Assembly (NCBI RefSeq): GCF_036417845.1
Contig: NC_089978.1
Coordinates: 136,828,288-136,892,287, forward strand
Direction: 5' to 3'
DNA length: 64,000 nt
From: Apteryx mantelli
Lineage: Eukaryota > Chordata > Aves > Apterygiformes > Apterygidae
Shown: piece after piece, positions 3,001-50,785 of the stretch
How positions within the stretch are numbered: the first letter of the stretch is position 1
Layout: each line of letters begins with the position of its first letter
Program-made: the position numbers and the translations under genes
The notes under the pieces: model-generated
Seen by the model: the letters and a program-made list of their open reading frames with translations, nothing else
Told to the model about the DNA's origin: nothing
Database searches by the model: none

Positions 3001-3244
3001 GAGGAGAAGAACCCAGCACAAGGCTCATTCATTATTTAGCTCTTCAGAAGATGGCTTAGATGGGAGCTGAGCAGCACACAGGTTTCTGCTGAGTTTCTGC
3101 CAGGGTTGGCTTCCATTCTAAGACAGCAAAAAGCTAAAGAATTCAGTGTAAAGCTAAATACACAGTGAGCATATCATGCAGCATACAATGAGAAAATGAC
3201 AGGCTGTAGCTAGTTCTGAGAATCAAGGTCTGGATGTGTTTCCT
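1..3244. other. Region downstream of the TCAF pseudogene; no gene recognised
   Basis: No exon-like or RNA-gene signal was recognised here. The part next to 3245 should be the former 3' UTR of the minus-strand TCAF gene. A minus-strand AATAAA (plus TTTATT at 2227-2232), about 1 kb past the stop codon, is a possible poly(A) signal, but other T-rich matches exist (for example near 1986), so it is not decisive. Small direct repeats are present: a tandem ATGTACAT-centred unit at about 37-66, and a doubled 'ttttgctaaggttaa' at about 1125-1154. Confidence 0.5.
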
Positions 3245-3490
3245 TCACAGTCTATAGGACTTCACTGGGTCCTGTTCCCAGCTGGGTAAAGAGGACAGTT
3301 CCATGGACAGCTCTTTCTTGATAGGCCATCCCCAGGCCATAAAAAAAGGAGCCAGGTTCCTGTTCACCTGCTGAGAAAACTTCTGTGCCCACAAGTTCAT
3401 CTTAGAAGGGTTGTCCTTTGGAATGGTGGACATTTTCTGGTAGTCAGAGAAGAGATGGATGAAGGGCTCCCAACCAAAGCCCTCCTGCAA
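3245..3490 (-). pseudogene. TCAF (pseudogene): TCAF last exon, intact C-terminus
   Basis: Acceptor 'tccctcag' before 3490. It reads [48 protein letters not shown] and [12 protein letters not shown], then stops at TGA 3247-3245. These 81 codons contain no lesion and match the family's C-terminal segment in length and order. Confidence 0.92.
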
Positions 3491-6400
3491 CTGAGGGACA
3501 AAAATATAGAGTGTAAAAACAATGAAATTCTCATTTCATAGACATTATTCTTGTGTTACAAGTAATAGAAACTTCCACAGGTTTCTGCAGTGTCATTTGG
3601 AAAGGGTGTAAAGTTAGATGAAGTCATCCAACTTTTAGGCTTCAGAGCATAACTTACAGCACTAGCATACAGAAAAAAACACATTTCCACTACACTGGCC
3701 TGCCAGAACAAATGGAGACAAAAGGTACATTGGGAGCAGATAGAAATGTCAGCACTCAGCAGCAACCAACCATGCAAGCTGATGATTTGTGCAGAATAAA
3801 GCTTCTTGTGCAGTGAAAAACCATCAGTAAGGACTCTGAGAGAGAACCTGGACAGAAGGAAGACAAGAGAACAAGGAGTAGTCAGAAAACAGGAAGGAGA
3901 GATTGTGAGCAGAGCATGTTTTGTCTAGGAATAAGAACAAAGGGGATAAAAACAGAAAAACTACTGTTGTATGAGAAATGAGTTTAAAGTAAAGAGGGAG
4001 TAGAAACCTGTTTTGTTGTTCAAGGCGAGGTTAATATGGAGAGCTGAGTTGGAACAATAGCTTGACAGGATGCAGAATGTTTACTGATTGTCAGTGTCAG
4101 TAGTTCATTACCAAGTCAAAGTGCATCACGCTTTGACACTAGTTTGACACTAAAATGTATTCCACAAATCCTCCATCATGCTGGAACAGCTAAGCAGTGG
4201 CAGACAACATTTCTACATTAGGCAGAACAAACAAATGGGTTGTCTGCCTATGATATTCCCATATTCACATGGAAACCCCTGGTGCTGAGACTAGCTATGG
4301 AGTAGGCAATATTTTGGGGTAAGAAGGTTGGAGAGTCATGAGCAGGCTGACCGGAAGGTAGGAAAAGGAAGGGTCTGGTTTTGAACAAGGCCAAAAGCAG
4401 TAAGCCAAGTTATACAGAAGGCTCCTCACCATGTTAAGTTATATCTGACCTGCAGAATGCAGGAGCATCTCCTAGATCCTGAGTTCAAGTATTCACCTCA
4501 GAGAATGGGGAGTTCCCAGCTCCATGTCACAACACGACCAGAATGAAAACTGTCTGTTCACTCCCTTACAGACAGTCTTCTATGGGAAGAAAACACAGGT
4601 ACTTGTGGGGGGCAACTGGATAACTGGGGGAACAAGTACCCTGGAACATGCTGCAAAGTGCTTCTTTTGCCTAGTTTAGACAGAGCTTTGGAGGGCTCTG
4701 ACCTTAGTCCAAAGCAAGTTCCAGAACAGTGAGGAAGTGGAGACAGAACAGTACAGACAGGAATTTTGCTGGCCAATTTAAATCTGTACATCCCTTGGGC
4801 CAATTGATTGATTTTCTAATTGCTTTATATTCTCTTTTCCAAGATCCGTGTTACAGGCTTCAGAGACCACTCTGGAGAGAGAAATGCATGACTAGGCTGA
4901 ACTCTGAGGGATGGTATGCTCTGTCAGGCAATGTCAGGACCAGACAGCACCCTCCTGCCATGCAAGTAAGAGGCAGACAGGATGTGGATCTGAAAGGCCT
5001 GAAGGTCAATGCTGAAGCCTTTCTGGATAAAAGGAATGTGAAAAACATCTAAATGGGATCCAGATGTATGGCTCAAAGCAACATGGAGAGCATTCAATTG
5101 AAGAAAACCCATTATGGCTGGAAGAGGGAAGGTATCTAGACAATAATTATACATAGGTCTTCTGTTTGTCTGTAGAAGGTGTGGTTAGTTTGTAAACTGT
5201 GAGTGTTTCTCATCTGTCTACAAAGCATCTTTGAGGTGTAAATATAGAAATTAGGTATTATGTGCACCTTCCTCTGAGGCATCCCAGACTGCTGTCAAAG
5301 ACCAAGTCAAGGTTGGAAATTCAGCCTGGTACCATCCAGCAGTCTCTCTGTTTCCACACAGGAAGAGCAATACAGAGGCCCTAAACTTTTTCCTTTGCTT
5401 AACACATCCTCTCCCAAGCACGGAAATTCAGCACAGGCTAAGTTATGAGACTAGGTGAGGAAACGGCAACTCATTTTTACTTCTCAGCTAGGGACCTGCT
5501 AATATCACTTTACATCAACCCAACAACTCATCTCTAGGAAGTATTAGGAAAAAAAAAAGCAATGGAAAGAGGGAAGGTGGCTCTTCTTCAGAGGTAAAGC
5601 CCAGGCAGACCTCAGGTAAGGTACCTCAAAACTCCCACTCGGCTGACACCTAAAAACTTATAGGCACCTATCATCCCTGAAACTCATGGTTTTCCAAGTG
5701 AATATGTACTAAAGTATTCAAATCCCGGCCCCAGAGCCCTAGTATAACACCCTGTGGACTCTTTGAGAGTCCCTGATCACTTTGAGAGTCTTGCGGATTC
5801 TCAAAGTAGCTGTAGCATCCTTTGCTAGTCTGATGTTCAGTGCTCAATACCACTATATTTGTTGCACTATAACATCAACTATTTCATGATGACTTTGAGG
5901 GGCACAGTGGGGAAGAAGAGGATTGTTCATTTGTTTGTCCCAACAGTTCTGTCAGTAGCCAGACAGGAGATGGCAGACTCCGGTCCATACTCTGCAAGAC
6001 CTGGAAATCAGATTTGACCCCAAGTTTCCCACCTCCTCAGGCAGTGGCCAAACTGCCAGCCTATAAGGTAATGTGGGTAAATCTCCCCTCTTGAAACTGT
6101 TCCCCTCTGTCTAACTATTTTGATATTCATTGCACCAGAGAAAACAGAAGTTGACTCTGCAGCTTGATGATTCAGGCATTCCTCTGAGATGTGAAAAAAC
6201 AAGAACAAATACTTTGGTATTTGTATGAGATGTAAGAGCTCCCAGAGGAGGGGCTGAGGGATATTCACCTCACAACAGTCAACAGCCTAAGCCATCATAA
6301 CGGACACTCACCTTGAAATCTCAAATTCAAATCAAGTTGAATGCTCTCTCTACTAGACTACTGGCTGCTACAAGAAGAAAGGTAAAGGGGGTAGGGGAAG

Positions 6401-6986
6401 AGCTCTCTCACATGCTTTTCATGAGAGTGCACCTTAATCGAGGACAAGGTTCATGATTTAGAGTCTTGAATGCAGTGAGGCATCTAACTACATTTGGAAG
6501 GGAGAAGATAAGATGAATCCATCCCCTTGCCATTTGATAGACTACACTGGCCCCACTCAGTGCACTGGCTCATATGAACACCCTGGTCTCTCCTTTGTTT
6601 TGTGTAGGGGAGCTCAGCCTTGTAACTTATCAGGATACTACTCTTCTAGAAGTTCTACAGTGCCAAACATTTTTTGCCAGCTAGCCCAAAGTCCACAGAA
6701 AATCTGCAGCAGATTAAAGAACTGTACCGACACTTGATCCTCCTTTTCCCACTCTGTATCAAGAAACAATTCCTGTTTCTCTCCTAGGAAGAAAGATTAG
6801 CACTCGGTTCTCTCTCCACATGGCTGAGGCGAAGTCTTGCAGAGGAAGGGCATCAGGAGACATTAGTGATACACAAACTATCCATGTATCTCTCTGGTGC
6901 TTTCCAGACCTAAGAAAAATCCAGCTTGTAAGCAAACAGTTGCAGTCACTAGGCACTGAGAATGAACCCACCTCTCCCAGAGTCAC
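3491..6986. other. TCAF (pseudogene): Last intron of the TCAF pseudogene
   Basis: This 3.5-kb intron separates exon 6 from the final exon. No coding or RNA gene was seen. A small perfect inverted repeat ('actttgaga' at 5779-5787 against 'tctcaaagt' at 5799-5807) is the only structure noted. Confidence 0.5.
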
Positions 6987-7324
6987 CTGCAGCTATGTCT
7001 CCAGTGCAGTCCACATTTCTCAGTCCTTTAGCTGAGCACCCTTCTTCAGATACCCTCTTATCCTTTCCTCCCCACACTGTGACCTAAGCGCCTTATGGGC
7101 CTGATGCCTGGGAATCCGCAGCACCTTCTCATGCACATAGACAGACCAGAGGTTGCAGGTAGCTTCTGTAGTATGAGGGGGAAATTCCCATGCTTGCTGC
7201 TGTTGATTGTGTCCCAACTCATGGACAGGACCACAAAGACCAGTGGTTTGCATGTGCTTCATATCTACCATCTCCTTCACTGAATCTAGGTGGCCCATGA
7301 TAGGGTAGCCAGCATGCATCCAAC
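6987..7324 (-). pseudogene. TCAF (pseudogene): TCAF exon 6, M60-like metal-site exon with two nonsense codons
   Basis: Acceptor 'tttcctgcag' before 7324 and donor GTGACT after 6987; 338 bases, in phase. It reads [43 protein letters not shown] and [17 protein letters not shown] followed by TTEAT fits the HExxH...E zinc site of the M60 family. Near the end, TGA at 7022-7020 takes the place of a Trp in the family's 'NWNAWTALETYLQ' segment, and TAG at 6995-6993 takes the place of its Tyr. Confidence 0.9.
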
Positions 7325-9107
7325 CTGCAGGAAAAGACAGGTATCAACACACAGCATAAGTGCTTATCCCAGTACCTCTTAGATATAAATGACTGTATTT
7401 TTTCATTTCTCTAGTGCCTTTCCTCCATCTCACATACCATACTTTATCACCATGAGTGACAATCTTTTCCTTTTTTGAGATAAGGAAATACTACAAACTT
7501 CACCTTAACAGACAGTCAAATAAGGGGTGTAAGGGTAACATTGAACTATCAGTTAAGTGCAGTTTTGCCCACTTGCCCTGTTTATACATAAGCGTACGCT
7601 CACATTTGGACTGACACTGATGTTTTAGGTCGAAGAAGAAAGCCTGAACGTTGCCCAGAACACACCTGAACTCTTTCAAACTGAGCACAGTGAGGCCAAT
7701 CCAACCATGCAAAAATGTGATTCAGCACTCTCACAGAGCTTGACTCTTCCTGTGTAAAGTGTGGATATTGCACGTCTGCACTCCAAGAGTTAGCAGTGTG
7801 GAAGAAACACATGGAGATCACAGCGCTCATCACGCTTAACTTCACAGAACAGCTGTTATCTAAACAATTTACCAGCATCATGCTGGGCAAGAATTTGGCA
7901 CTGCAAGGGATTTTACCCATGTCTCCTGGGTGGCTTCATCCCTGATTTGTCCTTCTGGAAGGATCCCAAAACTTTATATGAGAGTCATCCCCCCAAACTC
8001 AAACACCTGTCATAGGATGGGTTAAACAGCCCTTTACACTCACCACAAAGGGAGCCTACATAGCTGGCTTTGACTGAACACAAAGCTTGTAGACTACCCA
8101 AAGTAGAGGACATGAATCACATACTCCTTCTTGCAGAAACTGTTTAAGATCTTGAGCTCCCCTCAAGGGGAGCAACCCTATAGCAATGCCTGGCAACCCC
8201 AAAAGTTCAAGTCCAAAAATGTGAGCCAAACCATTTAGACAATCCAAACCACAAGGGAATCTTGAGTCTGCAGACTATGGTAATTTTAACTGGCATTTTC
8301 CCAGGACAGTAGAATTTCACACTCCGAAGATATGCAACAAATTATTTCCCTGTGGTCTAGCCAGAGGTTAGAACATCAGGGTTCATGCCAAGCCCTTGCC
8401 CTCACTGTGGGATGAAGAATTTAACCAGCTGGCTTTGAAAAACAACTGAATAAAAATGACATTGTAAGGTTCCACATTTACCATCTAACTGACTCTAAAT
8501 CAAATGCACTCGGTTTACAACTTCAGAAGCTAGGGTGGAGATGTGGAGGAGCATCAGTGCAAAACTACAAACTCACAGGCTTTGATAGTGATGCACATTC
8601 TGTTTCTCCTTTGCCTTCAGCTCGGACACATATTTTTTCAGGCTAAGTTTTGCCCACAGTAACTCTTGTGTAGCCTGTCTCCAGCAGGTACAATTGCAAC
8701 TGAATGTAAGCAAACAGTCCTGTGACTGAGGCAGGGGAAAATAGAAATCAGGTCACTATCTCCCAGTTGTACTGTCTCTGCAGTGCATTTAGGAGGGAGA
8801 ATGAGTGAGCCAAAGCCATTGCAGTCAGCAGCTCTGCCTCTCAGAACACTCAGGCAGCAGAAAAGCTGAGTGAGACAATACCAGTTTTGAAAGCAGAGGG
8901 GCAACTGCACCAGTCACTGTGGTTTTTGAAAGCCGTGCCTTACCACATTTCCATCCTGATGGAGTAGCTCACAGTTATGCAAGGCTTGCACCCCTTACAT
9001 AAGTTTGCAGTCCAATTTTAGCACAACAACCTCAAAGAAACAGACATTGCTGCTAGAGGCCACTTTTCTCTGGGCTCCTTGAGAAGGCTATACAGCAATA
9101 TACCTAC

Positions 9108-9346
9108 CACATGAGATCTGGACATCTGTTACAATCCTCTCCAGCCTTGGGAATTTTGTTGGTATGGCTGCCAATGTGCTATTGCCACCATGATCTCATC
9201 CCACAGGCTAAGCAGTGGCTTTGGGTTCTCTATGTGTAGAATGCTGTCAGCTGGTACAGTCAGGATAAGATTCTCAACAGCTAATTCTGCCCAGGGAGCA
9301 GGGTAATGCCGGATACAGGCCTGCCACTGGCTTTCACAGGTCTCCC
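9108..9346 (-). pseudogene. TCAF (pseudogene): TCAF exon 5 with -1 frameshift
   Basis: Acceptor 'gttgatgtag' before 9346 and donor GTAGGT after 9108. It reads GETCESQWQACIRHYPAPWAEL, ENLILTVPAD, ENPKPLLSLWDEIMVAIA, then shifts frame to continue FPRLERIVTDVQISC. The exon is 239 bases where phase requires a multiple of three (240), so one base is missing near 9177-9181. This begins the peptidase-M60-like part. Confidence 0.87.
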
Positions 9347-9859
9347 CTACATCAACACAGAAAATCAATTTTGAGCACACTCCCAGAAGACAAGCCACAG
9401 AAACATGTACTTCAGAAGTCTCTTCAGGGCTCTTTTGTGGATAGGAGACAGAGAGAGAAAAGGACTGTCTTACACCAAAGTAGTAGCACAGCAAGAACAG
9501 ATCTCTGTTTCCTATCTGAGAAAAAGAAGCATCAGACTTCTCCAGCCTCTCTTGATGATCTCATTCCCTGTTCTCCAACAAAGAGATAACAACACTGATT
9601 TTTGTTTAGTTTGACAGAGGAGCAAAAAGAAGTTCCATACAACAAGAGAAACTGATGGAAACATGGGAAACCCACCAGTGGGGAGATTACCGTTTACTGT
9701 AGGGACTGGAGGTGGCCATATGGGGACACCCTAAAGCAGGCATATGGCAAGGCAAGCTTTACCACAACTGAGGTCAGCCTGTATCGCTCCAACACAGTGG
9801 TTTTCATTGAAAATGACAACTCCAATCTCTAAAAAATGTCATTTTGAACAAACATTGCC

Positions 9860-10012
9860 CATTTCATGACAACCCTCTCACCTGCCTCCCGCCACAGAGT
9901 GGTTAAGTGACTTACCCAGAATTCCAGGGGAAGTCAAAGGAATACAAAACAAGAAAGCTAAACCTGGGTATTCCTAAGTCCAGACCAGTGACCCTAAACA
10001 CTGGGCCATCTT
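9860..10012 (-). repeat. MIR-like tRNA-derived SINE relic
   Basis: The stretch has the reverse-strand MIR-type signature: 'ggttaagtgacttaccca', then 'aacctgggtattcctaagtc' and 'cactgggccatc'. This is the tRNA-like head and core of amniote MIR SINEs read backwards. It is strongly diverged and lies in the TCAF intron between exons 4 and 5. The family is inferred from memory of the consensus and the boundaries are approximate. Confidence 0.55.
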
Positions 10013-10084
10013 TCTTTTCAGTCACAAGAATAACAGCATCTATGAGCAGTGCTAAGGAGAAAGACACCAAATAAACAAACCTAC

Positions 10085-10297
10085 CAAGCTTGAAGAAAGG
10101 AGCTCTGACTGCCCCTTCTACAGTGATGGACACTTTCCCCAGGACACTCTTTCCTGGTACTGTGATGTAAATAAGGCCACCCCAGAGGCAGGAAACAGAC
10201 TGTTTGTGGCAGGTAATATCACAGGTGTGTATCACCACTGGGGCCGTTTCAGCTCTGTGGCATGAGACAGGTCATCCGCATGACACCCAATCTGCAC
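10085..10297 (-). pseudogene. TCAF (pseudogene): TCAF exon 4 with -1 frameshift
   Basis: Acceptor 'cttctgtttgccag' before 10297 and donor GTAGGT after 10085. The first frame gives VQIGCHADDLSHATELKRP. The next frame gives VVIHTC, then SVSCLWGGLIYITVPG and GAVRAPFFKLG. The exon is 213 bases where phase requires 3n+1 (214), so one base is missing, most simply from the C-run at 10240-10243. Confidence 0.87.
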
Positions 10298-11273
10298 CTG
10301 GCAAACAGAAGGGTAGGAAGAGCTGGGCAAAATGCTCCAAGTGCAAGCTGACAGGCCACAGCACCCTGAGACCCCTGGTGTGCCTTGTAGGGCACACACA
10401 CAAAAGCAGCCTTCTGACTCCAACCCTACTCAAGCTTTCAGCTTGTGGTGAGCAGAAGCAGCAAAACAAGAAAAAAAAAAAGTTCAGTGCTGTCCCTGTC
10501 ACACAGTCTTACACCTCTACTCCCATTATTACTGAGGTCAGCTACCTCCTTCACTGGCAGCGGAGAGTTCCGCAGTGACTTCCTTCACTAGAATACTGTA
10601 TTGATATTTTCTTCACTCTGCACCAGCATCGAGGTCACATACTAAAAACGTGAGGTGAGGAGATGTGATCACTGCTGGCTTCCCTTCTTGCGCCTCTTCC
10701 CTGGTACTGATACAGTAAAACAGGATGTGGCTGCAAGATCATACAGAAGTACCTGAGTTAACCTTGGGTTTCAGCTACGTGGAGCTTTCTGCAAAAAATA
10801 CCCAAGCAGGTGAGTGCTTGCCTGCTTTGTACTTTACAGATAGCAGGAGCCCAGGTAGCTAGTTTGTATCTGATCTGGATACATCTACATGAGCAACAGG
10901 GACAGCACTATGAAAGTACCTCACGAGAGATCTGGAAAGAGACAACACTAAGTTTGGCGATTAGAAGGACCCAAGCACTTATCCTGGGCCAGGCAACCAC
11001 CTTGATTGTTTCTATCTGCAGGGTAACAAAACAAGCACAGCTGCCTTCAGGTAGCACATTTATCCAAGTAGCACACAGAAACAACAACAGTAAAGAGTGG
11101 GAAACAAGGTAAGAAATCATGATAATGCACTAAAAGTGACATAGGGTGGCAGCAGTAGGCAAGGATTGAAATGGCAGCAAAATTAGTACGGAGAAAAGCC
11201 TTCTGAGGCCTGTATTTGAGTGCCCACCTGACAAATACATCAGTGTACAGTAGCCAAATTCAAGAGAACTTAC

Positions 11274-11369
11274 CTGCAGACCAGCACCAACCACCATGCA
11301 AGTGAATGTTATAACTGCCGTGTGTCCTTCAGGGAGATAAGAGTTCTGTACTCCTCCAGGCTGTCTTGC
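11274..11369 (-). pseudogene. TCAF (pseudogene): TCAF exon 3 with +1 frameshift
   Basis: Acceptor 'aacttttag' before 11369 and donor GTAAGT after 11274. The first part reads GKTAWRSTEL in the incoming frame. The last part reads YLPEGHTAVITF...GAGLQ one base out of register, matching the family's 'LYIPG...LK' segment. The exon is 96 bases where the flanking phases demand 3n+2, here 95, so there is one extra base near 11336-11344. Confidence 0.83.
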
Positions 11370-13362
11370 CTAAAAGTTAAGACTTTCCTGAACAGTCAGC
11401 ACTTTTTCAGCCTAACGTCATGCATTCTGGAGATGTCAAGCTGCAATAAAAGAATCTTCATCCTCTTTTTTGCCTTGCTCTACACTCACAAAACTGTCTT
11501 GTGTTTTACCCAAACTGTCAGAAATACATTTCTAGTTTTAAAGCAAAAGGTGATGTGAACTAGACCGCCAGACAATTAGCATGCTTGCCCACCCAAATTT
11601 GAACTTCTGAAAATGACAAGATTAAACGCACTTACTAACAATTTAAAAATATAAAAAAGAAACCCAAACCCCAACACCTCCACTCAGATTCTCTCACAGT
11701 AAAGCCCTCATAAGAGGTGCATACTGCAGTGATATTAAATACAGTTGAAGATATAATGGTCATAAATCATTTCCTAGATAACAGACAGACAGTAACATCA
11801 GATTTTTCCCTAGAGTCTGGTCAGCACAAGCTGGGGCCCACACAAATTCCCATTCCTAGCAGACTGAAGTTATGAGAAAGCCTAAAAGGTCTGTCTTATC
11901 CTAGGTCTAACTCTAAATTGGGTACCCCATCATTCCAGTACAATTCAGCATGTTTCTAGACAGTCCTTCCGTGGAAATGCAAGTCTCCTCTGCCTAGAAG
12001 ATCTCTGTGGACAGTTGTGACACACAGTGCAAAGTTGATCCATCTCTACTGTACTGTCCAGGCAAAATCCACTCACTAGTTCACAAATAATGTTTTACAC
12101 AAGTGTATTTCAGCACAAACAGTTAACAGTCCTAAAAAGAGCTGTACGGTCATAAAGCACCCTTTCCATAAAGCACCTCCAAGAAAGAATGACCAATTTT
12201 TTCAAGTAAAACTTTCTCCAAGAAAAAATGCAAATTAGACAATATCCGGTTTCACCATATAGCATGTTCACCAAATACCATGTTTCACCAATTCATCTCA
12301 GTTTTGCTTGGCTTGCCCTGATAGCATTTTTGAAATGGTGTTTAATCTTAAATCATGGTTTGCTAGCATTTCTTTATTTTTTATATGAAACTATACAAAC
12401 ACTGAATAATTTCTGGCCAAACAAAACAAGGCATTTAAACCAATGCATTCAATTTAGTCAGTGCTAAACAATTTTCTTCTTTTGTCCTGACTCATTAGAG
12501 AACTGAAAACCAGTGAACAGTTGTTCCACAACTCTTCTTCTCTACATATCCTCTGCACTCAGACATTGCCACTTCAGAACAGTCTATCCTCATTAGAACA
12601 GTTTTCAAACAACTCCTCTCAAACATATTCAAATACAAAAATATAAGGTGAATCTGTCCAGGGAAAAATACCTTACTAGTGGAATTACCTAGACTTTAAA
12701 CATATTATTTACACACAGGAATCTCAGCAGGGTTGTATAGATAAAAAACCTAAGTTTAGACCTCTTACTCAGGATGTGATTACAAAGTACCTTGGCTTTA
12801 GTGACAATGCCAGCTTAAGAAGTTCCCACCTTACTTCTGGACCCCCAAAACCACAACCGGTTGCTCCTTCAGTTGTGCTGATGCAAGTTGTGGGACTGTG
12901 CTATAAATTGGATTGGAATGATTTGGATCAAAAATAGCCCTTTGTGCCTAATTCAGATCTTTTCATAGCACAGCCCCATAGATGGCTGTATCAGCACAAC
13001 TATGGGGATGGCAATCTGCAGTGCAGGGCCAAGACTTTCTTAAGGCAGTTTTCTTGCCAAAACCATTATGTTGCATAATTCCCCCGAAGTGCCTCTGTTA
13101 GGTGGTTCATCTCCCTCAGTGCCCTGTACACCAACAGAGAGGGAGCAGAACTTCCACAGGGTGTTTCAGAGCACTGCACTCCAGGTTGGCCACAACAGGA
13201 GCCTGTCTGTCACTACAGAGAGATCAGCCTCCTCACAAGCCCAAAGCAAAATTGTACAAGTGTCCCCATGTTCAGCCATACGTACACACAGACAAACATG
13301 TGAGGTGAGCCACTGTTCCCAGCAGCAGCATTACTCAAGAGGGAGGGAGATATGCTTCTCAC

Positions 13363-14333
13363 CTGGGTTTGTGCCATCAATTTCTACAGTAACAGGGAGG
13401 TCACAGACCCCACTGGTGGGTTTCTGCACTAAGGCTGCACAGTCCGTCATGGCACAGGACAGCTCAGTTGCCATGCAGAGAAGGGCTGCCTCTTTGGAGT
13501 TGCTCTGGACAGGGCAGTGCCTGCTGACATGTGGGATCCCACTTCTGCGAAGAACTTTGGTCAGGATGCGGTGGAGTGAGGCATATGCAGGGCAGTCTTT
13601 GGCTGAGATGCGCAGAAAGGCAGCACAGTCTTGTGTCAGTCTTTGCAGGCAGTCCTTCAAGGGAGCTTTGAGCTCCTCATCCTTGTCTACATGCCTCTGG
13701 AAAAGAGAGAGCACCTTGCAGAAGTGGTAGTGCTCCCCAGGCACCACGGCTGGGTATTTAGCTGCCTGGACGTTCAGACCCAGAATGCTGAGCCCAAAGT
13801 GGTTGAGGATTTTGTTGCCAGGATATTCTGCCACAGCAGCTTTGTTGTGGTTCTGGGAAGCTCAGTACCAGGCCTGACCTCCAGTCAGCAGACCGCCTCC
13901 CTCTGCCACAAAAGCATGAACCTTCTCCATCTCTCTGTCACTGTAAGAAGGGCAACAGTACACACTCATATCGCTTGTCAGGTGTGACACCTGGAACTTC
14001 ACCTCTCCTTGAGAGAACAGGTTACACAGTCTCTTCAGGCTGACATCCACACCCACCAGCCCCTTCTTCCCCGCATCCAGCCACTGGACAATATTGAGCA
14101 GGAATCCAGCCAACTTTGAGGAGAACAGCTGACTCTCATGAGTTGCCACCACAACACGCCCTTTGCCATAGCACGCTGCAGCTAAGAGGCAGCGGTGTGA
14201 GCTGTCCAGGCAGAGTGGGAAGGAGAAGATACCATGCACCAGCAAGATAGAGGGTACACCCCTTGTCACAACATCCAGCTCTGACACACCACACAGGAGA
14301 AACTCAGCATCAAGGCTGAGATTGGCATGATGT
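13363..14333 (-). pseudogene. TCAF (pseudogene): TCAF exon 2 (second N-terminal half) with in-frame TGA
   Basis: Acceptor 'tttgtag' before 14333 and donor GTGAGA after 13363; the 971 bases fit the flanking phases exactly. It carries SELDVVTRG, SILLVHG, YGKGRVVVATHE, FVAEGGGLLTGGQAWY, then TGA at 13864-13862, then ASQNHNK and EYPGNKILNHFG in the same frame. The equivalent position of the first half (exon 1) is TGG in GGQAWYWA, so the stop most simply arose from a Trp codon by one G-to-A change. The exon ends in DGTNPG. Confidence 0.92.
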
Positions 14334-16621
14334 CTACAAAACCAAGAGACATCCAAGTTAGCCCAAGTCCCAGAATCTTTTAAACACAAGTCTGCCTGGT
14401 CCATCCGTGCCTCTTCTTCCACCCTCACATCACATTGACAGTTCTACCAATTTTAAAAATACCTTCATTTTTCCTTTTAAAGCTTCAGGTTTGGGGGTCA
14501 AGTATCTCTGTAAGAATCTCAGTATTCATTTAAAAAAAACAAGAGAGAAAGAAAGGTCAAAAGGAAGTTTCTAGGCCTGTGACTTTGAAGAGCAGCTTGA
14601 AAATCCCTTCTAAATACATCACAGAAGCTCAAAAATCAGAAGGCCTTTCATATATTTTAATCAGTCTCTTGCAGGTTTAAACCTTGATGTGGGGATTGGC
14701 AAATCTCTTGTAAGGGAAACTTCATCCATTTTATCCTCCCTAGAAATCATCAGCTAACCAAGCCCAAAAGATTTCTCTGTGCTATTTCCTGGCCTCTGTC
14801 ACTGTTCAGAACTGAAGAAAGGATAGCTTGGCTAAATGGACAGATAGGCATACAGACAGTGAGTGACTTGAAGTTGACTTAGGCTCCTAACACATACTCC
14901 TCAAATGCCCATCAGTTGACCTCTACCACATAAAGAGATTTTATTGTGCATGGCCCTCCTCTTATCTCTGCTATTTCCATGTAACTCCTATATGTCACTG
15001 TGGTAAACAGTGTATTGAATTGCTTGGTTTTGCTTTGTTTATATTTTCTCCTGGTTTGGCCATACAGTTTTACCAAACACAGTTTTCACTCTGGCACTGG
15101 AAAGCATCTCATTACGTGGCCATTGCAGCCAACTCAGTGAGAATAAATGATTCAGCCCTTATGCACGCCCACAGGAGAGAAATTAAAACTGCAGCCCTCC
15201 TTTGATTATCACTTTACTCCAATCCTTTGTCACACAGAATAGGTATCCAGGCATACGGCACAGCACCTGCATCAGACCGCAGTCTGATTCTCTGTGGGTT
15301 AAACAAAGGCTAGCAGGAAGGCCCAGATGTACAGAGCTGTTGTGTTGCACTGAAATTATGTATCTAAATTCCTCTGTGGCTCTGGGTCAAAACAAAAACA
15401 CCACAGAAGCACCCTAAACAAGCTCTAATTCACTGTCAGTTACCACTTAAAGCCTTGTCAATTGCTATGTAATTTCTCTCTGGTGAATTTTCCACCCCCC
15501 TCCCTTTCTCATCTGCCTGTGAACTGGAGGTGGGGGAAAAGATCATTCAGAAAATTTTAATTAAATAACTTCATTTGTTGGCTGTGTCCTGAGCACTTTT
15601 CTGAATTCAACAGCAGAGCTTTCTGCTACCTTTACTGGGGCATAAATTCAGCATCCAGGAAGTATCAAATCCAATTATTTGTTGAAATTTAGTATATACA
15701 AGACTGTGATGAATGAAAAAACTTGTAGGGAATTTTATTATAATTGTTGCAGCTTTCAATGCAATGAAATGAAACTGCCACACACAGGAAGCAAAGCAGC
15801 ATGCATGCTCCTCAAAGACCCCACTGCACTTTATGTAACTCTGGAGAAAGCTGTGCTAGGCACAGCTTGGCATGCTAAGTGGGAAGGGGAGATAGAGGAA
15901 GACGGCAGAACAACACCCAAGATTCTGGTGACTTGTCTGCTCTGTCATGTGAGTCACAATAGCCCTGAATTTTATACGTGCTGCTTTGGGTCCCAAAGGG
16001 CCACTCTGGAATCCCAAACTATCTCGGAGCACAGAGGTTTCCTGCCCATGGTCTGTGTCGGGTGCTGAGAAGGGATGTGGCACTGGGCCAGTCTCCTCAG
16101 CTCTGTACTCGCCCTGGGGCTTCACTTACAGAAGTAAATTTCTGCAGCTAACAGGTTGAACAGGTTTAATAGCTGCCAGCCAGAGCCTGGCCCAGAAAGC
16201 TAGCCAGATGTTCCATCTCAAATCTGGTTCTGAACCACAGGAAAGCCACAGTTGCCCTGAATGTACAGTTCTGGGGGCAAAGGAGAGGAGTTACTCTTCA
16301 CTTCCCCAAGTTGCTGTGTGTTGCGCACAGATGCATTTGGTCATATATGCTGTTCTAAACAATGGCTACCTTCATTTCTTGTCCCTGAATGAATTCCCTG
16401 CGCTTTACCCAGCTCCCCTGGAAGCAGTCAGACATCATTCTTTGAGACGGCAAATAGTAAAAAGATCTCTCTTAAATTTCAAGATAAAAATTGCATCCCT
16501 GTCTACAAAAGAACCAGCATTCCTCATCATCCTCATCTCTTACCTCAAGAATCTCCTGTAAACATCTCACCTGTACAGCTTTATCAGCCACTTAAATAGA
16601 GATAGCAATTCAGACACTCAC
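14334..16621. other. TCAF (pseudogene): TCAF intron between the two N-terminal-half exons
   Basis: A 2.3-kb intron with a consensus GTGAGT donor and TTTGTAG acceptor on the minus strand. Open frames here do not resemble known proteins, and no repeat was recognised. Confidence 0.5.
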
Positions 16622-17255
16622 GGGACAAGTAAGGGAATCTTTGGCATCTTCTTCACAACTTTGAAGATCCCCTTTTCCACAGTGTTTCCTGTGAAGTACA
16701 CACCAGCCACACTGGTCACCTGGTTCCCAGGAAATTCAAACAGCACCTTCTCCTTGCCATGTTGACTAGCCCAGTACCAGGCCTGGCCTCCAATGAGCGG
16801 GCACCCACCTTCCTTTACAAAGTGAATCAGGTTTTTTGCATGAGTACTGTCATAGGCATCCATACAGTACACCCCCAGAAGGATGCTGAGCTCTGCCCCA
16901 GCCTGTACTTTGGTGCCAACCCTGAGGAGCAGCTGGGAGAGGGAATCCAAACAATGACGGACCCCAACCAGGGCCCCAAGGGAGGTCTTGAGCCAGTCGA
17001 CAGCATTTATGAGGAACTGGAAAAACTTGGAGTCCTTCAGGATTCCCTCATGAGAAACAACCACCATCCGGCCCTTCCCATACTGTGAAACAGCAATCAG
17101 AACTTGTTTCTGAGAGCTCACAAGCACAGGGTAGGCATCCTTTCCAGTAAGCAGCAGCTCACAAGGAACAAAGCCTCCAGTGAAGTCCCATGGCCCAACA
17201 CCATCCACTAACAGCCCATAGGTGGCAGAGAGTTTCATCTTCAGGTCGCTCTTAT
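16622..17255 (-). pseudogene. TCAF (pseudogene): TCAF exon with the start codon (first N-terminal half)
   Basis: The acceptor 'ctctccaccag' precedes 17255. The most likely start is the ATG at 17238-17236, which opens MKLSATYGLLVDGV and aligns with the family's short N-terminus. The exon holds 617 coding bases and ends in phase 2 at a GTGAGT donor. Motifs include VPCELLLTG, YGKGRMVVVSHE, LLGVYCMDAYD, GGQAWYWA and FPGNQVTSVAGVYFTGN. No lesion is present. Confidence 0.92.
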
Positions 17256-17964
17256 CTGGTGGAGAGAAGACCAACATTCACTACAGGATGGCTCAGCTCT
17301 AAAGAACTGCTATTGACAAAACTGCAGGGTCATTTCTTTGTAGTCTAATAGGAACTCCAAACCAAACAGGAATCATTTACTGGAAGCAACTTCAGGGGCA
17401 CAACTTTTCAGTGACTGGGATTTTTTTTTTCTTGTTTGGTTTTGTTATCACACTATTTACCATTTAAACAGAAGTGATAAGTATATCAAGATGACAGAGA
17501 AAAAGAAAGAGACTTTGTAATAAATTCTCCTATTCATCATGAAGGAGATCAAGTAAATAAAGATGAGTACTTTCCCATTAACAATTTATTTGGAGAGGGA
17601 GGGGTGCTAGAGACTCCAGGAAGTCTACAAAGAACTTCCTTGGTGGAGGCGGTTTACAAGGAAAGTGCCAGAAACTAAAATGATGGAAGCAATACAAAAC
17701 CCAGATGTTGCTGAAGGTAAAGAACTTATCAGCACAATACATGGCATAACTCCAACATGCAGTTCCACTTTTCTTCCTAATTGAATATATATAGAACTAC
17801 ACACGGTTGCTCCCAGACGAGCTTCCAAAGTCATGCTTTTCTATATGCATTAAGACATTGAAAGCAAAGAGTATTACAAGGTACTGGGAGGGAGGAGGAG
17901 GTTCAGTATAAATGATGAAGACAATCAGCACTCCTGGAAGAATAGGGACTTAGAAGAACAGGTC

Positions 17965-18135
17965 TGGGAGCAGGAAATTCATGCCCTAGTTCCTTGCTCT
18001 GAACTGCCACATGATCTCAGGGAAGTCATTTCCCTTTTCTGTAGCTTTGTTTCCTCACCTATAAAGTGAGGTGAATGATACTGACCTCAATTGCCAAGCC
18101 CTTTGAGGTCTATGGGTGAGACGTGCTCTATTTAG
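17965..18135 (+). repeat. MIR-like SINE relic
   Basis: Forward MIR-type order is visible: 'gatctcagggaagtcattt', 'tttcctcacctataaagtga', then the tail-like 'gccctttgaggtctatgg' and 'gtgctctatttagg'. This resembles the core and 3' end of amniote MIR elements. It is old and diverged; ends are approximate. Confidence 0.6.
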
Positions 18136-19850: not shown

Positions 19851-19882
19851 TACCCATTATATGGGTATACCCATTATATGGG
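19851..19882. repeat. 17-bp near-palindromic tandem duplication
   Basis: The unit 'tacccattatatgggta' occurs twice back to back, the second copy lacking its last two bases. Each unit is nearly its own reverse complement, so the stretch could form a small cruciform. No function is implied. Confidence 0.8.
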
Positions 19883-27357: not shown

Positions 27358-27441
27358 ATGACGGCGGAGGAGATGAAGGCGGACGGGGCCCCTCTGGAGG
27401 GGGTGGACATCACCCCTAAACGGGATGAGGGCGTTCTCAAG
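27358..27441 (+). CDS. FKBP4: FKBP4 exon 1 (coding part)
   Basis: Encodes 28 residues, [10 protein letters not shown]...DEGVLK, ending in phase 0 at donor GTAACC. The N-terminal MTAEEMKA and GVDITPK match FKBP52; the linker between them is shorter than in human. Confidence 0.97.
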
Positions 27442-30400
27442 GTAACCCGGCGGCTGCTCGGCACCGTTCTCGGCTCTGGCTTGCGGGGCCGGCGGGAGGG
27501 TTTCGTGGACAAGGCGTGAGGTGCCGGTCTGGCGCGGCACCCCGGGGACCCCTGAGCGCGCGCGCTTTCCCCCTGCCCGCCGCCCCGGCGCTTGTCGGGC
27601 TGCGTGATCCCTTTTTTTTCCCCCCTTCCTTCCTTTCTCCCCTTCCTCCCCTAAGGGCACGGCTGTTACCTGGCTACCCGCCGCCCGGTAGACTCGTGCG
27701 GACCTTGCAGTTAAATATTAGCCACGCCGCCCCGGGGCAGCGGGCGGGACGGCGCTCCGCCTTGCGCGCGCAGCCACGTGCGCGTGGGCTTGCGCGGCTG
27801 CGGCGGGGGGGACTCCTCGGACCGGCCAGCGGGCGCCCCCCCCTTACCGGAAAGGAGATACTCTGCTCGCGGCGAACCGGGCTTTCAGCCTCCAGCTGGG
27901 AAGGTTAAAACGGATTGCGAGGAGGAGACGCTGCTCGATGCCTTTAGGTTGCTGCACGACGCGCATGTGGGCGAGGGGGCGATCAGAAAGTTGTGTGCCT
28001 TTGCAGTTCTCCCAGAGTGTGCTTCTGTCCCCACTGCTCGCTTGTTTGGGGGAGTGTTGATTGTTTTTTTTTTTTCTTACAGCATGTGTTCTTGGGGACA
28101 GGGACGTTTAAAAAAAATAAAAATGGAAAAGTATAATGTATATTTTGTATTCATCCGTAATTGGTATAAAGTAATGGTGCTCTTCGAACCTGACCTTAAG
28201 AATCTGAAAAAGAGGCTCTCCATCTTGGTGGGAGCAATTTCTTAAACGTTAGATAGTGCCTTTTCACTTGGTCCTGAAGTAAATGTAGTCTCCATCTCTG
28301 TGGCAAGAGCCAGAAAGGCTGCCTTTTGTTCCATTTCATGGGAAAAATTAGCTATTAGCAAGCTGCAAGTGAGGCTGTTAGTAGCATGGACTGCAGAGCT
28401 AGTTGTGGTCACAGTTTCTGCTGTATATTCAGCATGCCAGTAGCCTGGCTTCTTTCTTCTGTACTTGCAAGACAGTTAATAGAAGCGGCAGAATTCATAT
28501 GAATAAGGGGGGAGTTACATTAACTTCCTCTTTTCTCTAAAATTTCCTATTTCCCAATCTGTAGAAGCTTCTTCAGTCTCTCTAGAAATTTTAATGTTAA
28601 ACAATCACTAGAAGCTTTTCCCCTTCCCCCTCCCCTTTTCCCCTTCCCCCTCCCCTTTTCCCCTTCCCCCTCCCCTTTTCCCCTTCCCCCTCCCCTTTTC
28701 CCCTTCCCCCTCCCCTTTTCCCCTTCCCCCTCCCCTTTTCCCCTTCCCCCTCCCCTTTTCCCCTTCCCCCTCCCCTTTTCCCCTTCCCCCTCCCCTTTTC
28801 CCCTTCCCCCTCCCCTTTTCCCCTTCCCCCTCCCCTTTTCCCCTTCCCCCTCCCCTTTTCCCCTTCCCCCTCCCCTTTTCCCCTTCCCCCTCCCCTTTTC
28901 CCCTTCCCCCTCCCCTTTTCCCCTTCCCCCTCCCCTTTTCCCCTTCCCCCTCCCCTTTTCCCCTTCCCCCTCCCCTTTTCCCCTTCCCCCTCCCCTTTTC
29001 CCCTTCCCCCTCCCCTTTTCCCCTTCCCCCTCCCCTTTTCCCCTTCCCCCTCCCCTTTTCCCCTTCCCCCTCCCCTTTTCCCCTTCCCCCTCCCCTTTTC
29101 CCCTTCCCCCTCCCCTTTTCCCCTTCCCCCTCCCCTTTTCCCCTTCCCCCTCCCCTTTTCCCCTTCCCCCTCCCCTTTTCCCCTTCCCCCTCCCCTTTTC
29201 CCCTTCCCCCTCCCCTTTTCCCCTTCCCCCTCCCCTTTTCCCCTTCCCCCTCCCCTTTTCCCCTTCCCCCTCCCCTTTTCCCCTTCCCCCTCCCCTTTTC
29301 CCCTTCCCCCTCCCCTTTTCCCCTTCCCCCTCCCCTTTTCCCCTTCCCCCTCCCCTTTTCCCCTTCCCCCTCCCCTTTTCCCCTTCCCCCTCCCCTTTTC
29401 CATTACAAAGAAGAAAAGCAGCAGGGCAGTAAAAACAAAATTCTGGCTTTAGCAAGACTTGTCTTCAGGGCACTGCTTCTACTTTCAGGAAAGATTTTTG
29501 GGACCAGACTGAAGATGTGTACCTGGTTCCTGTACCCTACTTTACCCATGTTTCTGCTAGCGTATTTTGGTGAGGGTTTCTAGGTTTCATATACAGCACA
29601 GTATCAAGTTAAAGTTGTCACATACGTGGCTGCCCACAAAGCTGCCTGCTGGTCTGTCATCTCAGCTCCCTGAACATTGTAAAATGCAATGTTATAATGC
29701 CTGTTTTCTTATTGCATGTACTACCTTTTGATGATAGGGGAGAACCAGGTAATAAAAAAGGAAAACACTGGCAAGAGAACTGAGGAAAGGTGTAACTTTG
29801 AACTGAAGAGGTATAAAAGAATGTAGAGGTCATGAAGTTAATCCAGTGTGCCTTTAGGGGTTTTATTTTTGTAGTGATGTAGAAATGCAGAATACACCTA
29901 CAGAAACCAAGGGTCTAACTCTCAACTAGTCTACACCAATCTTGTACTGGTATCATTTCACTGATTCCTGGAAAGTTCTGATTCGTTCATCAGTTTCATA
30001 TCAGGATAGTGTCCAGAGGTTTTTACCCGGTGGTGTTGAATGTACTTGCATCATTTCTAATGTAAGCATTTAAGTTCAGAAATAGAAATGAGTTTGCAAT
30101 CCCAATATGAACAGAAAAGGCAGGATTTTGCATTTGAAAGGGAAGTGGGTTACCCTATTGAAAATACTGAGTATATGAAAAAAAGAAACTTGATTCCTCT
30201 CCAAAACAAATAAAATGTGAAAGAATAACATTATATAAATACTGAAAATGAGATATTCATGACTTTAATGTTGTCTAACTTAATATGACACTTGAAGAAC
30301 CTGGCATTTGAAAGAGCTTAGTAAATTCTCATTAAATGCAGTTACTTCAAAATGATTCCAAGTTGGCTGTCTTAAAACTACTAGTCTCTCCTAACAATTT

Positions 30401-33400
30401 CAGTCCTTTTTTTCCCTTCTCTATTTAAAGCATCATATAGTTCAAATTGGTTACCAGATTCCCATTATTTTCAAATGTGTCTGTTTACTTATCTCTTTCA
30501 GTTACAGTTGCTCGAATTGTCTTCCATGGGAAAAAAAAATTAATAAATTGTCTTAGTTCTGTAGCATTAAGAACTGCTGTAGCATTCAGGTTATGCAGGA
30601 TGAGGGGGTGGTGTAGTTAGATAAGGCATCCCTCCTTACATTGAGCCTTCTGTCTGTAGGTAACTGAGCGGATGTAACTTCTCTTCTGCCTCTACTGAGA
30701 TACTTTCAGCTTGTCAAGACATAAGCTACTGACAGCTTCTATTAAGACAGCTTCTGACAGAAGCTGTTCACATTTGCCTCTGTTTCAGGCTGAGGGTCCT
30801 AGAATTTCACTATCATAGTTGGGGGGGGGCACAAAACAGGAGATTCTGGTAGTAATTGGTTGCAGGAAGTTGCAATTTGGGAGTGAGAGTCCCAAGGGGG
30901 CTTGCACCTTCAGTGCAAACCTGCAATCAGTATAAAAGCATGGAGGAATATGATGTTTTCCAGATATGCATAGATGTAAGCAAGTAAGTTCCCCCATTAA
31001 TTCCCTTTTGCCTAGCTAAAGTAATGCCAAACTTTGGCTAGGAGCCAGGTGGTTTCAGTCAGTATTGGAGAAAAACAGAACTTGAACTTTATAAGTCCTG
31101 TTATTGGCAAGGCCTCGTATCCATGTTGCATGAGAGAAGTGGGCATTTTTCTCTATATACATTTTAAATGAATACCAGAGAGGTTGGATGAACTTGCTTT
31201 TTGTACAGTGTAGACTTAGTTGATGCTGATTTTGTTCACTAACCGGTAGCACCTCTTGAAAAGAATGTCAAATCCTTGCAGTTTTATATGTGAAATAGGG
31301 GTGCTGACAATCCATGTTATAGTTGTGGGGTGCCGAAATTAGTATTACAGTTACAGAATCACTGAGGTTGGAAGGGACCTCTGGAGATCATCTAGTCCAA
31401 CACCCCTGCTCAAGCAGGGTCACCTAGAACACGTTCCACAGGATCGCGTCCAGGCGAGTTTTGAATATCTCCAGAGAAGGAGACTCCACAACCTCTCGGG
31501 GCAACCTCTTCCAGTGCTCTGTCACCCTCGCAGTGAAAAAGTTTCTCCTCATGTTCAGATGGAACTGTCTGTGTTTCAGTTTGTGCCTGTTGCCTCGCGT
31601 TCTGTTGCTGGGCACCACTGAAAAGAGTCTGGCTACATCCTCTTGACACCCTCCCTTCAGATACTTGTACATGTTAATAAGATCTCCTCTCAGCCTTCTT
31701 TTTTCCAGGCTAAACAGGCCCAGCTCTCTCAGCCTTTCCTCATAAGAGAGATGCTCCAGTCCCCTAATCATCTTTGTAGCCCTTCGCTGGACTTGCTCCA
31801 GTAGTGCCACATCCCTCTTGTACTGGGGAGCCCAGAACTGGACGCAGTTCTCCAGATGTGGCCTCAGCAGGGCTGAGTAGAGGGGGAGGCTCACCTCCCT
31901 CCACCTGCTGACAACACTCTTCCTGAGGCACCCCCCTCCCCCCACACCACCCCCCAGGATACCATTGGCCTTCTTGGCCACAAGGGCACATTGCTGCCTC
32001 ATGGTCAACTTGGTGTCCAGCAGCACTCCCAGGACCTTCTCTGCAGAGCTGCTTTCCAGCAGGTCAGCCCCAGCCTGTCCTGCTGCAGGGCCTTATTCCC
32101 CCCCTCGGTGCAGGACCCTGCAATTGCCTTTGTTGAACTTCATGAGGTTCCTCTCCGCCCACCTCTCCAGCCTGTCCAGGTCTCTCTGAATGGCAGCACA
32201 GCCCTCTGGTGTATTGGCCACTCCTCCCAGTTTTGTATTGTCAGCAAACTTGCTGAGGGTGCACTCTGTCCCTTCATCCAGGTCATTGATGAAGAAGTTG
32301 AACAAGACTGGACCCAGGACTGACCCCTGGGGGACACCGCTAGCTACAGGCCTACAACTGGACTCTGTGCCGCTGATCACAACCCTCTGAGCTCAGTTCC
32401 TGATTGTTACTGTGTTAGCTGATAGAACTAACCTGTGTTGGGGTGAAACTGTTATCTTTGTTAAACTATAGAGTAACCTTCAAGAATCTCAAATTCCTTG
32501 CATGCAACATCTATTCTAACAAGGAACTGGTACATTTTTGTTGTTAAAATGCTTTGCGTAGAACATGGAAATTTGGGGTAATGATACAGTGTTGGTAAGG
32601 AAAGTACCATAAGCAGATAAAGTAAAAAAACTTGCCTATGGCTTTATCTACATTTCACAAACATCTAAAATTTGCTGGGGAAGGATAAGTGACATTGTTA
32701 ACTATGGATGCGGAGATCTCTAAGCTAGTGCCAACTGTGGCCATTCAAGTTCTCATATCACAGCAGAGTTGTCTTGAGTGTCCATGCATTTGCAACACTA
32801 CTAATCTGTAATATATTTCCAGTTAACCTGCAAATCTCATATCAACTGAAGATGATAATGTGTACACCTAAATAAATGGAATTAATGTCCAGTTGGCGAA
32901 CTTAGTTTTCATCATCTTAGTGTCACTTACTCTTTTTCTCAGGTTGTCAAGAGAGAAGGCAGTAGGACAGAGTCTCCAATGATAGGTGATAAAGTGACTG
33001 TCCATTATACAGGATGGCTTCTTGATGGCACAAAATTTGACTCCAGTCTGGACAGGAGAGACAAGTTTTCATTTGACTTGGGGAAAGGTAATGTTTGATG
33101 TTGACTAGTCTTAATGATGCTGAGATGAGGATTCCCTGCATGTGTGGCTCCTTTGTATGTTAAAGTTGCTATTTTAACTTGTTCTCAAAATGTAAGGTTT
33201 TTTCTCTTAGAATGGCCCAATCAGAACTGCTTTGAGAACTTTCTGAATTGGAAAAAATATATGCATAACCACTTCATGAGGTTTGTGAAGAATTTGGAGG
33301 ACTTCAGACAAATGACCCCAAGGGAAGCAAACTCACCTTCATGGGAATTCACCCTGAAATGTAATGATAAAAGTTAGTTAAATAGCCAGCATGTGCATTT

Positions 33401-36400
33401 TTTGATCCTTTTTTGGCAAAAGTCTCGTTTAAGTATGCTTAACTGTGACCAATTACTGAGACGGTGTACTTGGGCAACTGTCAACTGCAGTTGAAGAATG
33501 GGGAAATCTATTCCCTCTTTCCCTAAACTTTCAAGTTAATCCAAATCTGGGTATCAAAGTACACCTCTTCATTATCAAAAGCCTTATTTTTTTGGATGCA
33601 AAAAGCATCCTTAGTGTGACAAATCTTACTATTCAGTTTCTTGATTCCCCCTGACAGTTATCCACCTGGTGCCTTTTCTATTTGGGGGATAAATTCTGTA
33701 GTGTACTGAAATTGGGTGATATGAGGGATACCAATTAATACAAGGTTAATACACGGGCTACTTGATGGAGTTGAAAGGAGCAGCAAGTAGGAGAGCTTGA
33801 GTGAGAGAGAGAATTTTGTTACTTTAGGTTCCAGCTTCTGTTCACTTTTGGCTTTACAAGGAATATGTCTTCCCCTTTCCTGTCCCCTTCTGTTACAAGT
33901 GTATGTAACTTTTAGTTACCACTCATGCTGGTCTTTGCCAACTGATAAAGTACAGAGAGAAAAGACTGTTGTTTTGGATTATTTTCAAAATATAAGCAGG
34001 CAATCTATCACCCTAAGACCTTCTTCTTTGAAGAGTTTATTGTTATTTTCTAGCACTTGAGATTGTGCCAGACACTTCAGATATGGTCTGTGTTCAAATG
34101 GCTTGTATTCTCTATAGGGGGAGGAAAAGAATCATTACATTCAGAATGAAGAAATTTTAAGAAATTTCAGATTTGGATCCTCAAGTAGCTTTGTAATTTG
34201 ATTAGAATTTAAACTGATATATGCAAACAAGAGTGAGTGCGATCAAGTCCTTCAGTACTTTTGCTCTGTCTGGCAGATTCTTAAGTTTTGTATGCTAAAA
34301 GTGATGATGCCAAGATTCACAGCTGATGATCACTTTCATATGTGCCTAACAATCATGCGATTGAAATCTGACTTGCATAGGTGAGGTGATCAAAGCATGG
34401 GACATTGCCGTGGCAACTATGAAGGCTGGAGAAATCTGTCGGATTACATGTAAGCCAGAATACGCCTATGGCTCTGCTGGGAGCCCCCCAAAGATACCTC
34501 CCAATGCTACACTGATTTTTGAGGTGAGTGGGAGACAGTCACTAAAACTGTACACTTCAAAAACAGTTACAACAAAAGTGTCTTACTGTAGAAAATGTGT
34601 GATGTAATGTGCTGTGCAACACATAGTTAACCTATTATTTCATTATTTAGAAAGACTGTAGCTGAACAGTTCCTTTTAATGAAATCAGTACAGAATAATT
34701 CTTGTGTCTCAGAATTCAGGATCATCATGTCACAGCTGGATATGAACGTTAGCCTGTTATCCCAGGTAGTCAATCTTGTATTTTTGGAGCAAGAGGCTGG
34801 AGGAGCAAACAATTACAACAACTGTACTGGGTCAGGCCAAAGGTTCGTCCTTCCCCGTGTTGTCTGTGACAGTGGCCATTAATAGGTGTATAAGTTCTAA
34901 TGAGGTTTAAGAAGTGTGGAGTGGCATTGCAACTTGTGGTTGTAAATCTGCTAATGCTAAAATCTGGCAATACAAGTTGGTATTGGACAGCATGATGAGA
35001 TATACATGTCTTGTTTTACAGTAGATCCTACATTCTGCAGCTAGGGATCCTACATTACAGAAGGTCTCAGTGTGCTTTTAAACAGGAGTGTTACGTTTTC
35101 AAAAAAAAAAAAAAAAAAGAAAGAAAATATGATCCACTAAGGAAGGGGGTGCAAAACAGAGATGTACTGGTGATTTGGAAGGTTTGGGGTTCCCTTATTC
35201 TGGAGTTTTTAAAATATTTGAATGTTTCTCTCTTAGGTTTGATCTGACAATTAAAAAAATGATTCCATATAGGAAAATGAAGGTTGAAAAAAGGTGTAAA
35301 AGGCAGGTTGTTAAATATTTTTCAACAGAGGTGGAGAGCTGTATATCATGATTTCACTTAACACATGAGTAAATACAACTGTCTGCTCATAGGCTTGTTT
35401 TTCTTCTGTTTTTATGGATGCCTTACAAGGGGAGCCTGTGGATTCCCAAGGCTTTGTATTTTTTACCAACTGGCTGAAAACTTTCAATGGAAGACTCTCA
35501 GGCTAAGGTTGTGAAGTAGTTGAAAAAAAACAAAAATTTTTTATTCTGTTTTCATTTTGCAAGACTCAAAATAACCATACTTATGTTAAACTTTATTTCA
35601 ACAATAGAAAAGGCAATTAGTGTCCTCAGTCTTGTATTTTTCATATATATGTATGTGTGGGTGGGTTGGTGAGCATTTTTTTCATTTTTTGTTTTGTTTG
35701 GGTTTTTTTTTTGTAACATTAACACAATCTTTTATGAGCTGCTCAGGAAAAAAAGATAACTAGGCTGTGTAAACTGCTAAAATCTATATATTTGAACAGC
35801 CATGAAAGTATGAAGTCTGTTTTCTATAAGACCAGAACATTTTAGGAATCCTTGAAACGCCATAAAAAACAGTTGTTCAGATTCAGGTTGTGTGGTGAAG
35901 ACCAAAGTCTTTCTGTGGCTCCAGGCTTCATTGATCAATCTTACTGTCACAAGCTCATTTGAATATACTTGACCATGAGACAGATCCAGCAGTCTTGAGT
36001 TTGGTGTCTGGGTAACACTAGTTTTACAATTCACATGAAGAGTTCATCTCCTCAGAGGTGAACTCCAAGTATCATCTTAGTATCTTAATAAGCATGGAGC
36101 TGGTTAGGATGAGTGTTTCTTAAATTCTGTCCTCTACTGGGGAGGTTACTTTTCAAGAAACCATGTCAGGTGCCTTCTCTGCCAAGGGTGGTGGAAATAG
36201 CAGTTCTCTTCTGTATTGCTTCAGTAGAGTAGTTTCTCAGAATGCTGAGACCTGTGTTTGATTTCTCATAGTTAGAGAATAATACCAAAGCTCTCCTGGA
36301 GCATGCCCTGACAAACAGCCTGTACAGTGTTCTGGGAGGATATATTTTTCTCATTTTTGAAACTATTCCATTTTCCAAGAAATGCTTCAAAATTAATTGG

Positions 36401-50689: not shown

Positions 50690-50785
50690 ATGCGGTCCGT
50701 CAGCTACGTACAATGCGTGGCGCTCGACTTCAGCGGGAGCCTCTTCCCGCACGCCATATGCCTGGGAGACGCCGACAACGACACG
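50690..50785 (+). CDS. ITFG2: ITFG2 exon 1 (coding part)
   Basis: Encodes [20 protein letters not shown] then [12 protein letters not shown], 32 residues, phase 0. The donor is GTCTGG, a poor match beyond the GT. The upstream in-frame ATG at 50675 has T at -3; the ATG at 50690 has G at -3. Confidence 0.94.

Follow-up and report, generated by a model that had tools for sequence, protein, structure and literature searches.

The TCAF (FAM115) gene of this kiwi looks like a unitary pseudogene, neither a duplicate nor a retrocopy. Six lesions, of which three are in-frame stops and three shift the frame by a net one base, break a gene whose introns are kept, and TCAF has been lost without visible loss of the channel TRPM8. 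In the explanation that we hold to be very probable, point mutations disabled the single TCAF gene of this bird lineage, after which the broken gene would have become fixed and drifted neutrally. Beyond what the initial annotation had noticed, the present analysis finds that TRPM8, the mammalian TCAF partner, is present. The window, meaning the whole analysed stretch of 64,000 nucleotides, corresponds to C1:136828288-136892287 in an assembly of 1.504 Gb and 408 contigs.

Structure of the TCAF gene

We interrogated the exon structure of TCAF using a human TCAF1 query and ten bacterial homologues, which served as frame references both as a profile HMM and, in the case of L028, as a single protein. 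The human TCAF1 query, including its HELGRN motif and its tryptophan and tyrosine positions, is a provisional version of the protein. With it, tblastn gave a collinear alignment over residues 5-916 of 921, interrupted at 207-210, 543-560, 590 and 700-706, and the identity of the long matches lay between 41% (exon 2) and 65% (exon 6, which is 50% identical to L028). The gene and its exons are as follows.

17255-3245, minus strand: TCAF (FAM115) gene, seven coding exons and six GT-AG introns with fitting phases
16622..17255, minus strand: coding exon 1, lesion-free, with the ATG at 17238 and the first of the two N-terminal repeats
13363..14333, minus strand: exon 2, second N-terminal repeat and linker
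11274..11369, minus strand: exon 3, phases fitting exons 2 and 4, two frames required
10085..10297, minus strand: exon 4, M60-like_N (PF17291), Pfam E 6.7e-06
9108..9346, minus strand: exon 5, start of PF13402, Pfam E 1.3e-11
6987..7324, minus strand: exon 6, core of PF13402, Pfam E 2.7e-26, HELGHN zinc motif kept
3245..3490, minus strand: exon 7, PF13402, Pfam E 2.4e-14, terminal stop TGA at 3245-3247

The seven exons and six lesions of the initial annotation are all present in the sequence, and its span of 3245-17255 coincides with the outer exon edges. Its statement that all splice sites are in place also holds, as all six introns are GT-AG and an AG acceptor precedes exon 1. Because these introns are kept, TCAF is not a retrocopy. 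Exon 1 is open for 205 codons, has an upstream AG acceptor and a GT donor, shares 52% identity with the human TCAF1 query, and aligns to positions 37-232 of the bacterial-homologue HMM. The repeats of exons 1 and 2 are 39% identical to each other (E 1.9e-20) and match the same HMM region. Further downstream, M60-like_N (PF17291) in exon 4 and Peptidase_M60 (PF13402) in exons 5, 6 and 7 score above the Pfam cut-off. The zinc motif of exon 6 reads HELGHN, with the downstream E, whereas the human TCAF1 query has HELGRN. The coding total of 2,720 bases is one below 907 codons including the stop. The C-terminus is about 5 residues shorter than in the human TCAF1 query, which we take as normal variation and not as a seventh lesion. 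An Rfam scan of window positions 3000-20000 gave no match.

Six lesions in the TCAF reading frame

The lesions, numbered in the direction of the gene, are listed below.

13862..13864, minus strand: lesion 1, in-frame TGA at codon 363 counted from the ATG, exon 2
~11339..11341, minus strand: lesion 2, net +1 frame change, exon 3, approximate place
~10245..10249, minus strand: lesion 3, net -1 frame change, exon 4, approximate place
within 9165..9183, minus strand: lesion 4, net -1 frame change, exon 5, placed to this interval and not to a single base
7020..7022, minus strand: lesion 5, in-frame TGA, exon 6
6993..6995, minus strand: lesion 6, in-frame TAG, exon 6

Each stop can be set against a residue in the references. 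Lesion 1 stands in the context AWY*ASQ, where exon 1 of TCAF itself reads AWYWASQ and the homologues have W. Lesion 5 falls on a W of both L028 and the TCAF1 query, and lesion 6 on a residue that is F in L028 and Y in the TCAF1 query. The exon 6 match from the whole-assembly PF13402 search likewise contains one TGA and one TAG. The frame changes were located by matches that jump between frames. Exon 3 reads WRSTEL in one frame and YLPEG in another, where L028 has WRSTGLYVPPG, a comparison made by eye because this exon is too short for search scoring. In exon 4, tblastn gave two pieces in differing frames (10330-10244 and 10241-10083), and in exon 5 the HMM matches 9443-9180 and 9183-9103 lie in differing frames and join at model position 527, a switch that tblastn shows as well. 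The places first proposed for the three stops are confirmed, and the interval found in exon 5 covers the earlier 9177-9181.

Translation of a TCAF transcript would end at codon 363 of about 906, ahead of five further exons. A stop so placed predicts nonsense-mediated decay, and such a transcript would probably be degraded in this way or else yield a fragment without the M60 domain. Alternatively, a working protein of about 362 codons, made up of the two N-terminal repeats, might still be produced and kept while the M60 part was shed. The distribution of the lesions speaks for this, as exon 1 is fully open, no lesion precedes the first stop over 362 codons (1086 bases, 40% of the frame), and the other five of the six lesions all lie downstream of it. 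That skew is not significant, however, with a chance of about 0.08, and the stop interrupts the second repeat midway through a 971-bp exon that five more exons follow, so that decay of the transcript is to be expected. We regard a truncated working TCAF as improbable. Recoding of the stops through RNA editing or readthrough is an exceedingly remote prospect: two TGA stops occupy W positions and are in principle open to recoding by A-to-I editing, but the three frame changes are beyond such editing, and we know of no case of either process for TCAF. Inactivation of the whole gene by point mutation remains the reading that we prefer.

Control genes and sequence quality

We examined two neighbouring genes in the window as controls, keeping rows at E<0.05.

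27358..42352, plus strand: FKBP4, control, 9 distinct exons covering residues 1-424 of 459, no lesion in the matched part
50690..63520, plus strand: ITFG2, control, 12 exon rows, no lesion in the matched part

FKBP4 gave 11 rows, made up of the 9 distinct exons and two cross-matches between its own domains, and its last exon had no match at E<0.05. Three rows, two of FKBP4 and one of ITFG2, contain stops, all of which sit in flanking intron sequence adjoining a GT donor or an AG acceptor. The initial annotation had counted 22 intact exons in the two genes; the absence of lesions stands for the matched parts, and the count becomes 21, with the last FKBP4 exon unmatched.

The FKBP4 region also carries repeats of its own. 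In the first intron, a 20-bp unit is repeated 39.3 times at 28615-29401 with a 100% match, and this perfect identity suggests a very recent expansion. Fragments resembling CR1 retrotransposons, with long open stretches, lie on the minus strand at 31427-32092 in intron 1 of FKBP4 and at 42800-45276, just past the last matched FKBP4 exon; we take both to be CR1 of the avian type.

The lesions were read from one individual's assembly, and an intact TCAF overlaid with assembly or sequencing errors would have to account for all six. Half of them shift the frame by a net one base, as long-read errors usually do, and a 2.7-kb stretch at QV30 would hold six or more errors with a probability that is not very small (P = 0.06). 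At QV40, on the other hand, this chance drops to 4e-7, and no single-base run near the TCAF indels is longer than 4. If errors were spread uniformly across some 8.1 kb of coding sequence (the control length being approximate), all six would fall in TCAF with P = 0.0015. Assembly error is unlikely because three lesions are substitutions to stops and because the matched coding stretches of FKBP4, ITFG2 and TRPM8 are free of lesions; we consider an intact gene behind the errors highly improbable. The clean control genes and the three substitutions bear out the first interpretation of TCAF as a decayed gene rather than bad sequence.

Copy number in the assembly

A non-functional duplicate with an intact TCAF elsewhere would leave the same broken frame. 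Some vertebrates carry several PF13402 proteins per species, according to PMC3267712, and an assembly gap or a collapsed near-identical copy could hide a second TCAF. Against this, searches of the 1.504-Gb assembly with PF13402, exon 2 and exon 6 found no second M60 or TCAF gene. Specifically, the PF13402 profile gave three matches at E up to 10, all of them TCAF exons 5-7. The exon 2 protein found itself and the repeat of exon 1. Apart from its own locus, the exon 6 protein matched two places at E 3.9 and 7.4, both interrupted by stops, and we attribute these to chance. The reach of the same search tool was checked with the TRPM family, for which it returned family or domain matches at 25 places on five contigs. 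These searches agree with the earlier description of TCAF as single-copy-looking, and since they reveal no second gene, TCAF seems to be a unitary pseudogene; a duplicate with a working copy elsewhere is very improbable.

Age of the loss

We estimated the age of the loss from the number of lesions. The open segments of TCAF hold 896 codons, where each 1% of neutral substitution should produce about 0.9 stops. The observed three stops and three frame changes correspond to a neutral divergence of 1.7-3.5% (modes, resting on assumed indel-to-substitution ratios of 0.1 to 0.03), and the 95% ranges jointly cover 0.8-7.6%. Bird rates are 1.2-3 x 10^-9 per site and year, which places the modes at about 6-29 million years and the joint 95% ranges at about 3-64 million years. 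The recent loss proposed at first is therefore acceptable in the sense of about 2-4% neutral divergence, which means several to tens of million years, at the level of a lineage.

A divergence of 19%, or 12% with a slow rate, corresponds roughly to the age of all birds. The probability of six or fewer lesions (ratio 0.045) is 2.5e-11 at 19% and 4.7e-6 at 12%. Because so few lesions would be improbable at whole-bird age, the loss is, judged by lesion count, most probably lineage-specific and not a legacy of all birds.

The splice sites and the ATG, 27 bases together, would remain untouched with a probability of 0.44-0.58 at 2-3% divergence. As this is expected about half the time, their intactness is uninformative on continued transcription, and the suggestion that transcription persists, drawn from the intact splice sites, finds no support. 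The lesion number and the untouched splice sites are compatible with one common age.

TRPM8, the partner channel, is kept

TRPM8 lies on C6 near 6.35-6.39 Mb, and all 22 matched stretches are without stops. They span residues 3-1077 of 1104, with a few residues absent between rows; the cut-off used left the final 27 residues unmatched. Nineteen exons joined together give 971 residues that align end to end with TRPM8 chains of solved structures, and the best matches of a 113-residue piece are also TRPM8. Against the deposited chains, the scores were 2094-2162 bits for eight, which we take to be songbird, 1907-1941 bits for six others, presumably mammalian, and 1880 bits for a shorter one. Both these scores and the avian-type CR1 pieces in the window indicate a bird genome. 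As far as its reading frame shows, TRPM8 has survived the loss of TCAF.

Because the partner channel is kept, TRPM8 most likely works independently of any TCAF in this bird. It is reasonable to hypothesize that the loss of TCAF bears on cold sensing, and the persistence of TRPM8 gives this idea a sharper edge. Having the channel but no TCAF, such a bird would be a natural knockout, both for the need for TCAF in non-mammalian cold sensing and for what the single TCAF did before its duplication. A broader proposal, which we raise tentatively and would not lean on, is that birds need no TCAF for TRPM8 and that TCAF was perhaps lost more than once among them. If this is true, the control of TRPM8 by TCAF would be a mammalian elaboration and not an ancestral need.

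Comparison with known systems

The bird gene shares its order of parts with mammalian TCAF1 and TCAF2 (FAM115A/C), namely two N-terminal repeats, M60-like_N (PF17291) and M60 (PF13402). In PMC8387397, the duplication that produced TCAF1 and TCAF2 is placed at the base of mammals, and both mammalian proteins are described as binding TRPM8 and altering its gating or trafficking, with opposite effects, TCAF1 favouring the channel and TCAF2 suppressing it. The mammalian split is absent here: the bird gene is single, and its frame is broken.

According to Nakjang et al. (PMC3267712), the zinc motif has deteriorated in 13 of 36 vertebrate PF13402 proteins; zebra finch has two PF13402 proteins (one with HEXXH) and zebrafish four, and chicken is absent from their table, the protein search of that study having used a database of January 2010. 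That zebra finch is in this table and chicken is not is at most a hint that TCAF occurs patchily among birds. The matches listed in the open-licence literature, as far as their excerpts extend, contain no report of a TCAF loss in birds.

A search with exon 6 also covered other genome contigs, where 27 stretches matched the pattern and 10 of these encode relatives (L028-L037), all bacterial; in viral contigs, two stretches matched the pattern and none was confirmed as a relative. These bacteria are a Deltaproteobacteria MAG, Verrucomicrobia, Lentisphaerae, Kiritimatiellae, Pirellulaceae and Paenibacillus. The relatives match both the N-terminal and the M60 parts, with at most 50% identity in exon 6. 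These M60-like/PF13402 peptidases are like TCAF in that their HMM aligns with exons 1, 2 and 4-7. They differ in being bacterial, with one open frame each, and several have, by eye, a hydrophobic, secretion-like N-terminus. Such single-frame relatives bear on the origin of vertebrate TCAF.

The loss of TCAF is an ordinary kind of event. Like other unitary pseudogenes of vertebrates, the gene keeps its introns, carries several disabling changes and has no working copy that the searches found elsewhere in the assembly. It differs from them in its kept partner channel, TRPM8, which makes it a natural test of the need for TCAF.
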